Source of the DNA: Pseudemcibacter aquimaris
GTDB lineage: Bacteria > Pseudomonadota > Alphaproteobacteria > Sphingomonadales > Emcibacteraceae
NCBI RefSeq assembly: GCF_028869115.1
Contig: NZ_CP079800.1
Span: 1,488,001 to 1,552,000 of the forward strand
DNA: 64,000 nucleotides
Direction of reading: 5' to 3'
The position numbers and the translations under genes are program-made. Under the pieces are notes generated by a model, which saw only the letters and a program-made list of their open reading frames with translations, did no database searches and was not told the DNA's origin. Shown piece after piece: positions 2,962-42,431 of this stretch (position 1 is the first letter of the stretch; each line of letters opens with the position of its first letter).

Positions 2962-3214
2962 TATCCTGATCAGTATTCATAATTGGATTTCTTAATTTTT
3001 TACCCGTAACGCAAATGAAAAATCCAGCCGGAAATGCAAGAATGCCAGTAATAAATTCAAATAAAGCATCAGGTAATCCATCAACACCAACCTGTGTATA
3101 CACGAAATAGGAATAAGCCGGGCCCGCCGCAATCATAAACGCGCCAAAGCCCATCATGATGGTACGTAAAAATTTGTAACTGAATACTTTATTATCAATA
3201 TTTCTTAATGACAT
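2948..3214 (-). CDS. Small two-TM membrane protein
   Basis: An 88-residue protein with two hydrophobic segments (about residues 17-37 and 52-70) and a charged tail rich in Asp/Asn. I do not recognise the family. It begins 10 bases after the stop of flavin amine oxidase 1 and overlaps the start of the Dph6-like gene by 14 bases, so it is locked into the same transcript. The glycine- and proline-rich loop between the helices is unremarkable. A housekeeping membrane protein is as likely as a role linked to the amine oxidases. Confidence 0.6.
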   Translation of the reverse strand: MSLRNIDNKVFSYKFLRTIMMGFGAFMIAAGPAYSYFVYTQVGVDGLPDALFEFITGILAFPAGFFICVTGKKLRNPIMNTDQDNDSK

Positions 3215-3224
3215 GTTTTGGATT

Positions 3225-4817
3225 TTATCCTTTGCTTACTCGTTTATCAAGATCATCAATTGAATGCCATGCTGATTCAATCGCCGCGAAGATCCAACCG
3301 CGGTGCATAGGCACCATGCCATTACCACTGAATAGAACACGTTTTTCGCCTTCTATTAGTGCAGGGAATCTTCTTGTGATATTACGTTTTGACCACACGA
3401 CCCAAGCGGCGAGGGCATATTTCTGTTTATGCCATGCCATTGAAACGCCTTTGCCGTTATAATATTTACGGAAATAACCTGGGTGAATTTTTTCACCAAT
3501 TTCAAGACTGGTTTCAAAGCGGTCTTTAATGGATTTATTGCCCAATTTAATCGCGCCGCCACGCCGCGCGTATGATGTCAGAAGCACACCTGTTGAATTA
3601 CTGAACAGTTCATCGGACGGGTAACTAATTTCGCCACTTTCTTCAAAATCGTTGGCGGTGATACCACCGTAAATTTGTTCTTCATTTTCCCAAAATCGTT
3701 GAGAGAACTGAAGACCGTTTTTAACAATTGGTGCGGATGTTGGCGCACGTAAGCCCGCAACAACATCTTCACGGAAATCGGTTTTGATTTTGTTGAGCGT
3801 CGGGAACATTAAACATGAAATTGCGTAATCTGCTGTTACCGTTTCTTCTCGTCCTGATTTCGTATCTTTATATGTCACAGAAACGCTGCTATCAGATTGC
3901 TTGATTTCTGTAATTTCTGAATTAAGTCTGATAATGCCTTTTGGCAATGCATCGGCCATGGCAAATGGAATTTGATCCATGCCACCTTTCGGTTGGAACA
4001 TCATCGCCGGATGGTCACGGTCGATATGACGTGTGCCCATTTTAAATTTAAGCAGATCTGATAATTCATAAGGATCAGCAAGCTTACCCAAATCGGTACC
4101 AACGGACGGTGAATTTTCATAACCACGCGCCAAGTTAGCACGGTAATTAAGTTCACGGCGGTCAATTAATCCTGTCGCCTTAAGATATTCAAGTATGCGT
4201 TCTTGATCTTCTTTAGTAACGCGTTCATCAAGGAAACCGTCATTCACACATTTCGCAAGCAGTTCGGCCACATATCCAGTACGGTCAGTATCAACATCAT
4301 TTTGGCGTAGTGATTTGCCTACAAGTGGGCCTTCGCCTTTACTTTGGTAGTAATATGCTGAAAATGCCTTGTTCACGAATGGCTCAAGCTCGATACCAAG
4401 TTTTTTACAATAGTAAATTGTTGAATGATGTTCTGGCGCAATACGCCATGGGCCAACGTTCAAATATTGATTGTTGTCAAAATCACAAACCTGTCTTTCA
4501 CCGCCAACATCTTCGATCACTGTACCTTTGCGTGCTGACATACATCTGCCGCCAACGTGGTCTTTTGCCTCTAGGATTTGAACGTCATATCCTTTTTTAG
4601 TTAGCTCAAGCGCGCAGACCAGACCGGAAATACCAGCACCAAGAACGAGTACTTTTTTACCGTTCCCGTCGGTTGTCATTTTTGGTGGCTCTGTCATGGT
4701 TGATGCCATGGCGCGGTCCCATGCGGCCATAGTTGACATCATGGCTGATGTTCCCGCCATCATACCAATTCGTGTAAGAAAGTCCCGTTTTGTAAAACTG
4801 TTATTATTTTCAGTCAT
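3225..4817 (-). CDS. Flavin-containing amine oxidase, copy 1
   Basis: A 530-residue FAD-dependent amine oxidase. After an N-terminal segment TKRDFLTRIGMM plus a hydrophobic, alanine-rich stretch resembling a Tat signal (but KR instead of RR), the Rossmann dinucleotide motif GAGISG lies at residues 60-65, followed by an ILEAKDHVGGR second FAD motif. The C-terminal FAD region (LFSGNGMVPMHRGWIFAAIESAW) is intact. Family members oxidise primary or secondary amines or amino acids to imines with hydrogen peroxide. It is a tandem paralogue of copy 2 upstream. Its Shine-Dalgarno AGGGG is buried in a predicted hairpin (4823-4857). The substrate is unknown. Confidence 0.85.
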   Translation of the reverse strand: MTENNNSFTKRDFLTRIGMMAGTSAMMSTMAAWDRAMASTMTEPPKMTTDGNGKKVLVLGAGISGLVCALELTKKGYDVQILEAKDHVGGRCMSARKGTVIEDVGGERQVCDFDNNQYLNVGPWRIAPEHHSTIYYCKKLGIELEPFVNKAFSAYYYQSKGEGPLVGKSLRQNDVDTDRTGYVAELLAKCVNDGFLDERVTKEDQERILEYLKATGLIDRRELNYRANLARGYENSPSVGTDLGKLADPYELSDLLKFKMGTRHIDRDHPAMMFQPKGGMDQIPFAMADALPKGIIRLNSEITEIKQSDSSVSVTYKDTKSGREETVTADYAISCLMFPTLNKIKTDFREDVVAGLRAPTSAPIVKNGLQFSQRFWENEEQIYGGITANDFEESGEISYPSDELFSNSTGVLLTSYARRGGAIKLGNKSIKDRFETSLEIGEKIHPGYFRKYYNGKGVSMAWHKQKYALAAWVVWSKRNITRRFPALIEGEKRVLFSGNGMVPMHRGWIFAAIESAWHSIDDLDKRVSKG

Positions 4818-40903: not shown

Positions 40904-40932
40904 TTGACTTATTTATTCATTTGCATTATTGT
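40904..40932 (+). promoter_or_regulatory. Promoter of the arsR-Cys-rich peptide operon
   Basis: TTGACT at 40904-40909 and TATTGT at 40927-40932 are 17 bases apart, giving a fair sigma-70 promoter. Its -10 is overlapped by the inverted repeat at 40919-40938. Confidence 0.5.
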
Positions 40933-40938
40933 GCAAAT
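40919..40938. promoter_or_regulatory. Probable ArsR operator
   Basis: ATTTGCA and TGCAAAT form a perfect 7-bp inverted repeat separated by TTATTG, sitting on the -10 element and 20 bases upstream of the arsR start. Location and symmetry fit autorepression by the ArsR dimer, but binding is inferred. Confidence 0.5.
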
Positions 40939-40957: not shown

Positions 40958-41254
40958 ATGAATGAAGAATTAGTGTTTAAGGCGCTTGGCGATCCTAACC
41001 GAATGAAAATTTTAAATACGTTGTGTGACCGGGACTGTCCATGCAGTGTCGGTGAGGTCGCATGTTGTTGTACCGTGGATATGTCCGTGGTCAGCCGTCA
41101 TTTAAGCACATTAAAGAATGCGGGGATTATAACCGCTGAAAAACGAGGTAAAGAAGTTTTTTACCACGTAAACAGGTCTGATGTCGCAGCGCTTTTGCGT
41201 GATATTGCGGACAGACTTGAAAAACCATGTTGTTCAAACAATAGGAGAAATTAA
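40958..41254 (+). CDS. ArsR family metal-responsive regulator
   Basis: A 98-residue winged-helix protein. Conserved parts are FKALGDPNRMKIL, the HTH helix SVVSRHLSTLKNAGI, and the wing KRGKEVFYHVNR. Cysteines lie in CDRDCPCSVGEVACCCTVDMS, directly in front of and in the first recognition helices, and a CC pair near the C-terminus (EKPCCSNN). The CCC run is denser than the single CxC pair of ArsR or CadC type sites. It should repress its own operon and release on binding a thiophilic metal or metalloid such as Cu, Zn, Cd or As; which one is not readable. GAGG precedes the ATG by seven bases. It overlaps the next gene as TAATG. Confidence 0.88.
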   Translation: MNEELVFKALGDPNRMKILNTLCDRDCPCSVGEVACCCTVDMSVVSRHLSTLKNAGIITAEKRGKEVFYHVNRSDVAALLRDIADRLEKPCCSNNRRN

Positions 41255-41373
41255 TGACAACAGAAGACAAAAAAAAATGCAATTGTAATTGCGATAACAA
41301 TTGTTGTGATTGTGATAACTGTAATTGTGATGGTTGTGACTGTAAATGTTGCAAAGATTGCAACTGTTCATAA
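41254..41373 (+). CDS. Metallothionein-like cysteine-rich peptide
   Basis: A 39-residue peptide beginning MTTEDKKKCNCNCDNNCC and ending CNCS. It has 14 Cys (positions 9, 11, 13, 17, 18, 20, 23, 25, 28, 30, 32, 33, 36, 38), arranged as CxC, CC and CxxC pairs, with Asp, Asn and Lys as the main other residues and no His, aromatic or hydrophobic core. That is the composition of a metallothionein, but it does not match the BmtA/SmtA (His-containing) type I recall. Its ATG overlaps the arsR stop in TAATG, and AGGAGA lies upstream, so it is translated from the arsR message. It probably binds Cu, Zn, Cd or Hg in thiolate clusters in the cytosol. The repeated TGTGATTGTGATAAC codons show internal repetition. 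Confidence 0.8.
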   Translation: MTTEDKKKCNCNCDNNCCDCDNCNCDGCDCKCCKDCNCS

Positions 41374-41409
41374 AAAAGGCGCTTATCACCCTGCACGGTG
41401 ATAAACGCC
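41374..41409. terminator. Hairpin after the Cys-rich peptide gene
   Basis: GGCG-TTATCACC and GGTGATAA-CGCC pair with bulges around a CTGCAC loop. The T-run is on the minus strand; on the plus strand it would act as an mRNA 3' end hairpin or a weak terminator. Confidence 0.5.
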
Positions 41410-41451
41410 CGAACGGTTCAATGAACCATCCTTTGGTTTATTAATTATAGG

Positions 41452-41485
41452 AACTGGCAGGGGTAATTTCAACCTGCCAGTTTTA
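41452..41485. terminator. Second terminator hairpin
   Basis: AACTGGCAGG and CCTGCCAGTT form a 10-bp perfect stem followed by TTTTATTCTTTTT on the plus strand. It ends the arsR-peptide transcript, and faces the small membrane protein gene on the other strand. Confidence 0.75.
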
Positions 41486-41668
41486 TTCTTTTTGGCTTCC
41501 TGATTTATAACTAAGCCATGAAAACGGAACAAACCATACTGCAATAAGCATATATTTTACTGTTTCGTTATATGTGGTGCCGTCCAACATATAATCCGCG
41601 AAAATTATAAGCCCCGCGAATACGAGGGATACAAGAATGATCAGTAATGAGTTTCTATTCTGTTTCAT
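41483..41668 (-). CDS. Small two-TM membrane protein
   Basis: A 61-residue protein from the ATG at 41668 (upstream in-frame starts would add a non-hydrophobic extension crossing the palindrome at 41692). It has two hydrophobic helices (RNSLLIILVSLVFAGLIIF and MLIAVWFVPFSWLSY) and short charged ends. I do not recognise the family. It is divergent from the beta-barrel gene and shares a 136-base spacer with it that holds a 37-bp palindrome. Confidence 0.45.
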   Translation of the reverse strand: MKQNRNSLLIILVSLVFAGLIIFADYMLDGTTYNETVKYMLIAVWFVPFSWLSYKSGSQKE

Positions 41669-41691
41669 AAAATAAGCTCTTTCAAAAATTT

Positions 41692-41728
41692 CATGTAACG
41701 GTAAGTAACGGTTACGTACTGTAACATG
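41692..41728. promoter_or_regulatory. 37-bp imperfect palindrome with GTAAC half-sites
   Basis: The segment from CATGTAAC to GTAACATG matches its reverse complement at most positions, with centre GTAACGGTTAC and repeated GTAACGG/GTAAG units. It sits between two divergent genes, where an operator for a dimeric or tetrameric regulator would lie. Its regulator is not known. Confidence 0.5.
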
Positions 41729-41804
41729 GTTGCTATTCAATGGTCTATGGATAATTTTGAACATGGGGCAGGGAAAGATCGGTTTAAATTTTTAAGGAGT
41801 TATT

Positions 41805-42431
41805 ATGAACAAAACCATCTTTTCTTTTTTTATTGTTCTTATGTTTTCAGTGACACAATCATTCGCGCAGGAAAATAACAAGAATTTTGTATTTCTTGGT
41901 GGAACAACCAGCATTTATGATCAACACACATCAAACCTTACCCTTGGGGTAGAGGGTGTTTATATGCGAAAAATATGGCGAGGGCTCGCCATTGGTGCCG
42001 GTGCAAATATTGATTTTGGTCTTCCAAGCGTATCGGGAAGCGGTTCCGTTGATGCCTTTGATAACGGTACGGTAACCCATCCGGCATACGATTATGAAAA
42101 TAAAAGATCATTTCAAAAATACAGTATTTCGGCACTCGTTGGTGGCGTGTTCGACCATTCAAATGGCAGCAGGACGGCATTGCTAGTCGGTCCGGAATAC
42201 GGAAAAATTGATTTTAAAACCAATTTTAATCAAACATTCGCTGACGGCAGCAGCAATAAAAGCAGCAATAGCCGTGATGAAGATCATTTTTCATTACGCG
42301 CGGGTGTTTATCATCAATTCAAGGATAGTCAGTGGATCGTCGGATTAAACGCGAGATATGGGTTTTTATCTGATTTCAGTGATGTTGATCATTATATGCA
42401 GGTTGGCTTATCCGCAGGATATGCGTTTTGA
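41805..42431 (+). CDS. Outer-membrane beta-barrel protein, porin-like
   Basis: A 208-residue protein with a signal peptide (MNKTIFSFFIVLMFSVTQSFAQ) and a mature part of alternating strands: repeated aromatic and glycine residues, FVFLGGTTSIYDQ, and a final GLSAGYAF ending in Phe, which is the beta-barrel C-terminal signal recognised by BamA. Size and pattern fit an eight-stranded opacity-type barrel. No function is known. AAGGAG lies just before the ATG. It converges on the amidase gene with no spacer. Confidence 0.65.
   Translation: MNKTIFSFFIVLMFSVTQSFAQENNKNFVFLGGTTSIYDQHTSNLTLGVEGVYMRKIWRGLAIGAGANIDFGLPSVSGSGSVDAFDNGTVTHPAYDYENKRSFQKYSISALVGGVFDHSNGSRTALLVGPEYGKIDFKTNFNQTFADGSSNKSSNSRDEDHFSLRAGVYHQFKDSQWIVGLNARYGFLSDFSDVDHYMQVGLSAGYAF

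Follow-up and report, generated by a model that had tools for sequence, protein, structure and literature searches.

The locus described here lies in Pseudemcibacter aquimaris, within a window of 64,000 nucleotides (contig NZ_CP079800.1, positions 1,488,001 to 1,552,000), a term used throughout for the whole stretch of DNA that was analyzed. Two short genes follow one another on its plus strand. The first, arsR (40958..41254), codes for a regulator of the ArsR/SmtB family of 98 aa, which is recognized by NF033788 (75.1 bits, against a cut-off of 55) and by PF01022. The second (41254..41373) codes for a Cys-only metallothionein-like peptide, MTTEDKKKCNCNCDNNCCDCDNCNCDGCDCKCCKDCNCS, whose 39 residues include 14 cysteines (36%), arranged in seven CxC, two CC and five CxxC motifs, and include neither histidine nor aromatic residues; its assignment as a gene draws on the translation, on its relatives and on a codon comparison. 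The translation and the motif counts thus bear out the peptide as the sequence-only reading of this DNA had described it, and the good Shine-Dalgarno sequence claimed there is found as well: a predicted ribosome-binding site, AGGAGA (41243..41248, plus strand), stands 5 nt upstream of the ATG and is identical in all five loci compared below. An imperfect tandem repeat of 21 nt, i.e., seven residues, runs through the peptide gene in 3.3 copies (41281..41349, plus strand; TRF score 61, 72% matches) and spans 69 of its 120 bases. Two ORFs of 89 and 51 aa on the minus strand overlap the peptide gene.

An ArsR query against the GTDB contig collection returned seven loci, of which four (L003-L006) are close orthologues and three (L007-L009) are distant. 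The titles of the four name Emcibacteraceae in two cases and Alphaproteobacteria in the other two. Each shares a 100-base stretch with one of four genomes in the whole-genome sample (labeled G below); these loci lie in those genomes and are therefore not finds independent of them. In all four, the DNA directly 3' of arsR contains a Cys-rich ORF, 28-34 residues long and with eight cysteines, so that such an ORF stands behind the same ribosome-binding site in all five congeneric loci (the window and L003-L006) in which the DNA 3' of an orthologous arsR can be read. The TAATG overlap with arsR, on which the earlier reading had also relied, is present in the window, where the arsR stop TAA occupies 41252-41254 and the ATG of the peptide gene begins at 41254, but none of the other four loci shares it. 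The arsR stop lies 10-13 nt upstream of the peptide ATG in L003 and L004 (TCATAA) and in L006 (TCATGA), and in L005 a shifted arsR end makes the two genes overlap by ATGA. In the L005 arsR (3001-3297) this ATGA is created by a one-base difference near the 3' end, either biological or an assembly error, which replaces CCS at the C-terminus of the protein by HVVHERRYK.

Alignment of the five peptides (A1) leaves eight Cys columns and one Asp invariant, within a core of the form CxC-x(2-3)-CxC-x2-CDC-xCC. All 40 cells of the eight columns hold Cys, and both TGT and TGC are used in six of the columns; residues other than Cys are partly conserved among the five peptides too. Between L005 and L006, all 11 changes in the 17 core codons are synonymous. 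Summed over the ten pairs, pN/pS amounts to 0.15 for the core, 0.31 for all aligned codons and 0.15 for arsR codons 1-88, figures that come from five sequences, are uncorrected, have saturated synonymous sites and combine pairs which share branches and are not independent. The frame, whose conservation in related genomes the sequence-only reading had proposed to check, is thus kept in four of the four readable relatives, and the rates of synonymous and non-synonymous change, which would be equal in an idle frame, differ in the core. Since the relatives keep its cysteines, the peptide ORF is, by the evidence of its codons, a real gene under purifying selection.

A chance or remnant ORF is an extremely improbable explanation and was rejected. 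The peptide is short and repetitive and has no database match, as such an ORF might be, but its frame recurs in the relatives, with selection on its cysteines and a conserved ribosome site and ATG, and its composition was not reached in shuffled sequence. The Cys-richest runner-up among the 785 window ORFs of at least 25 aa has five cysteines in 25 aa. When the window was dinucleotide-shuffled 20 times, with ATG as the one start codon considered, the best ORF reached a Cys fraction of six in 25, and the next eight in 34. The ORF was likewise shuffled 20,000 times at the dinucleotide level, and none of the products held an open stretch with at least 14 cysteines in any of the six frames. The added length of the window peptide consists of Cys-rich residues that flank the conserved core on both sides. 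Because four of the five members have eight cysteines, an expansion in the lineage of the window is indicated, with a probable rise in its copy from about eight to 14 cysteines, partly via the in-frame 21-nt repeat.

A hairpin of 32 nt, GGCGYTTAT-N6-GC-N6-ATAAACGCC, follows the peptide gene at 41378..41409, 4 nt past the stop, and occupies a like position, 4-10 nt past the stop, in five of five loci (L003:3387-3418, L004:2427-2458, L005:3400-3431, L006:3400-3431). Each of the 60 cells of its stem is paired; ten of the 12 pairs are invariant, and two are changed on both sides, the outer part of the stem being strongly conserved. Of 500 shuffles, seven reached the covariation score, 130 the number of two-sided pairs and 270 the number of pair types, frequencies which render the covariation suggestive rather than overwhelming. 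The hairpin occurs as a single copy in the window genome, and its consideration as a genome-wide repeat was rejected on this account. With no more than one mismatch it is found in five of the 13 genomes of the genus, the very five that have a readable full unit of arsR and peptide gene; the best match in G031 has three mismatches, as do the other matches in the genus. The minus strand of the hairpin has the form of an intrinsic terminator. That it serves solely as the terminator of the convergent amidase gene further on is a weakened proposal, because its close matches (0-1 mismatch) occur only with the full unit and are absent from three congeners without the unit; it may still act in its minus-strand terminator form. 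By this distribution the hairpin belongs to the arsR-peptide unit, where it may act as a terminator for opposing transcription or as a stability element of the peptide mRNA. A second hairpin, predicted by folding, precedes a T-rich stretch (41450..41484, plus strand) and is a likely plus-strand terminator; the minimum-energy fold of 41374-41500 has -46.5 kcal/mol, with a z of -5.3.

Short ORFs rich in Cys codons can serve as attenuators, and the peptide ORF might accordingly be a regulatory leader, whereby translation of its Cys codons beside the hairpin senses the supply of cysteine or a metal and controls the RNA behind it. The precedent of attenuators built from short, Cys-codon-dense ORFs and the hairpin with compensated changes just past the stop in all five loci speak for such a leader, which is nonetheless a very improbable one: the next sizeable ORF 3' of the unit lies on the minus strand in all five loci and differs among them, being an ORF of 93 aa in the window, a rhodanese-like one in L003, one of 374 aa in L004 and the amidase in L005 and L006, so that there is no conserved plus-strand target. 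The plus-strand ORF for an outer-membrane beta-barrel (PF13505), which the window has between the unit and the amidase gene (41805-42431), is not seen at that place in the other loci, and the partial conservation of residues other than Cys is also not what a leader calls for. As to the DNA behind the unit itself, the 93-aa minus-strand ORF of the window (41483-41764) resembles, by eye, DNA in the interval between the CDF and amidase genes of G020 (L032), a genome without the unit. The ORF behind the unit in L003 (3494-3949) was judged rhodanese-like by eye, and a similar rhodanese-like stretch, broken by stops, lies in the same interval of G020.

The gene frame common to the genus consists of a UDG gene (minus strand), a CDF exporter gene (plus strand), the arsR-peptide unit and, further on, the amidase gene (minus strand). 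At an E value of 1e-20, six genomes out of 396 in the order gave an arsR orthologue, each of them belonging to the genus of the window, and the seventh orthologue is that of G029 (L039 2-103), truncated by the contig start; the arsR of G024 (L015 1501-1647) is truncated by the contig end. Thus, arsR is present in seven of the 13 genomes of the genus, and the peptide gene stands next to it in five of the five that are readable. The two genomes with a cut arsR, G024 and G029, yielded no peptide at any other place, which says little for draft genomes. The CDF gene is present in 11 of the 13 and lies 5' of arsR in the window, in L003-L006 and in G029 (L039), with an extra ORF between the two in L004 and L005; in G024, the ORF that precedes arsR is a different one, the CDF gene being located on another contig. 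Three genomes (G020, G022 and G026) have a readable CDF-amidase interval which contains neither arsR nor the peptide gene nor the hairpin, the peptide having been sought there with the A1 profile and by eye in the three forward frames. A tblastn search with the window peptide matched the window alone and missed even the known relatives, and the absence therefore rests on the profile and on reading. Since arsR, the peptide gene and the hairpin are missing jointly from this interval, gain or loss seems to affect the unit in its entirety, and the CDF gene is not a fixed partner. The position next to a CDF exporter, to which the sequence-only reading had drawn attention, accordingly stands for the window, where the genes adjoin, but the CDF gene is general to the genus and is no fixed neighbor of the unit; as a fixed functional partner it was rejected, the relation being one of adjacency.

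The same arrangement bears on the possibility that the peptide is a metal chaperone for ArsR or for the CDF exporter, which delivers or removes an ion, rather than a bulk store. Its gene is directly behind arsR in all five loci, with the CDF gene upstream in all five (at a remove of one ORF in L004 and L005), and PMC10612145 cites work on cyanobacteria in which a metallothionein takes zinc away from its sensor. Congeners that have the CDF gene and lack the unit, along with the arsR of G024 that has no adjoining CDF gene, argue against a chaperone, and additional cysteines, 14 in place of eight, make more sense for capacity than for docking. On balance this role is unlikely, and a storage role for the peptide is preferred.

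Upstream of arsR, a promoter for the unit is predicted at 40904..40932 (plus strand), TTGACT-17-TATTGT, with nine of the 12 consensus bases. Taken alone it is weak, because nine sites of that score were found where 6.7 are expected from shuffles; the pattern TTG-N20-TATTGT occurs at the same place in seven of seven upstream regions of orthologous arsR genes. Over the -10 element lies an inverted repeat, ATTTGCA-TTATTG-TGCAAAT (40919..40938), which is the predicted ArsR operator and whose core is kept in the seven loci. This core, a 16-nt palindrome, TTTGCATTATTGTGCA, extends across the end of the -10 element and is identical in all seven arsR promoters, and the full 7-6-7 repeat is perfect in five of them, the right end being TGCATAT in L003 and L006. 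Allowing up to three mismatches, the window contains four matches to the core against 4.1 expected by chance, namely the perfect site, its reading on the opposite strand and one match each with two and three mismatches. A second good match is absent within the window, which also counts toward seeing the relation to the CDF gene as one of adjacency. A repressor bound to the predicted operator would block the promoter of the arsR-peptide unit.

ArsR has cysteines at positions 23, 27, 29, 36-38, 91 and 92. It passes NF033788, a generic metalloregulator model, and no more specific NCBIfam model. Its best solved relative in a profile search is SmtB, whose alpha-5 zinc ligands we take to be D104, H106, H117 and E120; the profile alignment places R73, D75, R86 and K89 of ArsR at these positions, and by this alignment ArsR is without zinc ligands of the SmtB alpha-5 type. 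C29, C37 and C38 are shared without exception by the six sequences of the ArsR alignment (A2), and a C-terminal CC pair is present in four of the five genus members, L005 being the exception. No ars genes were found among the scanned neighbors in the window (Pfam, NCBIfam) nor, by eye, among the ORFs of L003-L006. The invariant cysteines of ArsR itself and the lack of alpha-5 ligands favor a soft, thiol-bound inducer; our guess would be a soft ion such as Cd(II), Pb(II), As(III) or Cu(I), in preference to a dedicated zinc system.

Sensing through cysteines would also suit a different substrate, with the peptide as a buffer of thiols or sulfane sulfur which stores or scavenges reactive sulfur, and with ArsR responding to persulfide or oxidants. 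All of the candidate ligands are Cys, the NCBIfam model of BigR, a sulfite sensor, matches ArsR with 34 bits, and a rhodanese-like ORF stands behind the unit in L003, together with the interrupted one in the unit-less G020. Yet the BigR match is far under the 155 bits that this model requires, and the generic metalloregulator model does clear its threshold; no rhodanese-like ORF is next in the window, L004, L005 or L006 (the relatives having been judged by eye); and clusters of CxC and CC suit metal thiolates. A sulfur buffer is therefore quite unlikely.

The peptide, which the earlier reading had called undescribed, has no match in Pfam (up to E 10) or NCBIfam for any of the five members, nor in the PDB (HMMER), and in this respect the claim holds. 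The handling of composition bias by HMMER may weaken Cys-rich matches; PDB queries with rat MT2 and SmtA recovered their own families. PHROGs matched one of the five members, at E 0.86, and Rfam gave no window matches at gathering scores. The profile of the SmtA/BmtA family, PF02069, matched nothing in the genome of the window up to E 1, in a search which matched four of 14 control genomes (Synechococcus included), one of them over the cut-off. No report of the peptide was found in the listed titles and abstract openings of open-licence papers. Among genomes, the peptide profile A1 at E 0.01 matched four of 396 of the order, all congeners, and none of 388 of the phylum, in samples drawn from larger groups. 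At this threshold it misses the copy of the window itself owing to its insertions, which limits these negatives, since strongly altered relatives would escape as well. Used alone, up to E 1, the window peptide matched two of 32 genomes of the family, itself and one at E 0.475, and neither plasmids nor viral contigs gave a match (in one search with the BLAST low-complexity filter and one with an exact pattern). Among the genomes sampled, the peptide was thus found in a single alphaproteobacterial genus.

The ArsR profile A2 matched two of 385 genomes of the class at 1e-18 (the window and L022) and five of 369 of the phylum at 1e-16 (the window and L042-L045). In these loci and the distant ones (L002, L007-L009, L022 and L042-L045), a scan covered small ORFs (20-90 aa) whose Cys content was 12% or more; several Cys-rich ORFs were noted in L002, L008 and L042-L044, the richest being one of eight cysteines in 35 aa in L043 that overlaps the 5' part of arsR, and no CxC-rich ORF was judged present behind arsR in any of the loci. 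In L007 (3001-4135, a deltaproteobacterium MAG), an ArsR of about 52% identity overlaps a 49-residue ORF with CC pairs, which is not among the ORFs listed by the scan. A methyltransferase-like ORF follows in L007, with several cysteines at its own end; for the 25 NCBIfam families listed, out of 66, it stays below every cut-off.

Control of metallothionein genes by ArsR-family repressors is established: SmtB-SmtA of Synechococcus and BxmR-BmtA of Oscillatoria are both described in this way in PMC8790569, the latter as an operon, which the unit described here would also be. Both systems likewise combine an ArsR/SmtB repressor and a small Cys-rich protein with an inverted repeat in the promoter. 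Differences are found in the arrangement, with smtA divergent from smtB according to PMC7387436 and PMC8790569 and the present peptide gene downstream of arsR in the same direction, as well as in the peptide. SmtA (in a sequence lacking the last residues) has nine cysteines, together with histidine and aromatic residues, and its fold is given as a zinc finger in PMC10612145, whereas the present peptides have 8-14 cysteines and that of the window no histidine. The five peptides do not show the His ligands of SmtA/BmtA, having no His in the window, L003 and L004 and one each in L005 and L006; a recent review states that almost all studied bacterial metallothioneins contain His (PMC12193353). Membership in the SmtA/BmtA family was not detected by profile, and to the reach of such searches there is no detectable relation of the peptide to SmtA or PF02069.

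The spacing CxC-x3-CxC-x2-CxC, seen in four of the five peptides, is instead that of the Cys-only beta domain of rat MT2 (PDB 4mt2) and not of SmtA; the window peptide is without it. When each peptide was shuffled 100,000 times, this spacing, which was noticed post hoc, turned up 69 times for L006 and 2,688 times for the window. Rat MT2 gives no HMMER sequence match, and the peptides are acidic while MT2 is basic; the likeness in spacing to the animal domain is taken as convergence. Two further bacterial proteins invite comparison. MymT of Mycobacterium tuberculosis, according to PMC10612145, also is a bacterial metallothionein outside the usual sequence pattern; it is regarded as a copper metallothionein and belongs to another phylum. 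Zrd of Pseudomonas aeruginosa is recently reported as a small metal protein built on Cys, previously uncharacterized and governed by a metal sensor, and differs in its two predicted zinc-ribbon domains and in its control by CadR (PMC12301328). The Cys-only peptide of the present locus has no family model in the libraries searched.

All five peptides are small and have their cysteines in CxC, CC and CxxC clusters, the sequence hallmark of the metallothionein class, bearing in mind that a Cys-rich composition alone is not proof of a metallothionein. The peptide is most likely a metal-trapping protein, and we infer the binding of metal from its composition and context, as we do the repression, its release and the ion concerned. 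Probably, the two genes form a self-regulated metal-buffer unit, in which an ArsR-repressed thiolate buffer would be a metallothionein by function. ArsR, seated on the palindrome over the -10 element, would keep the unit repressed until a thiol-loving metal or metalloid ion binds to its cysteines and releases it. The derepressed mRNA would then yield more ArsR together with the Cys-rich peptide, whose thiolate clusters would take up the surplus ion until repression is restored. The growth from about eight to 14 cysteines should raise the capacity of the window copy.

A broader proposal is advanced tentatively, at somewhat less than even odds: the peptides may represent a new family of bacterial metallothioneins, single-domain and free or nearly free of His, so far of one genus, which would have arrived independently at a spacing like that of the animal beta domain, would answer to an ArsR whose sensor site is new and consists of Cys throughout, would have their capacity set by in-frame expansion of a seven-residue repeat (eight to 14 Cys) and would have a conserved hairpin built into the unit. 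Bacterial metallothioneins have been described from few lineages. The case of a peptide of 28-39 residues that has no family model in the libraries searched suggests that such small metal-buffer genes may escape notice, and that the DNA behind arsR could be a place to find them. The five orthologues, ranging from eight to 14 cysteines, would offer a natural series on the relation between the number of cysteines and metal capacity.
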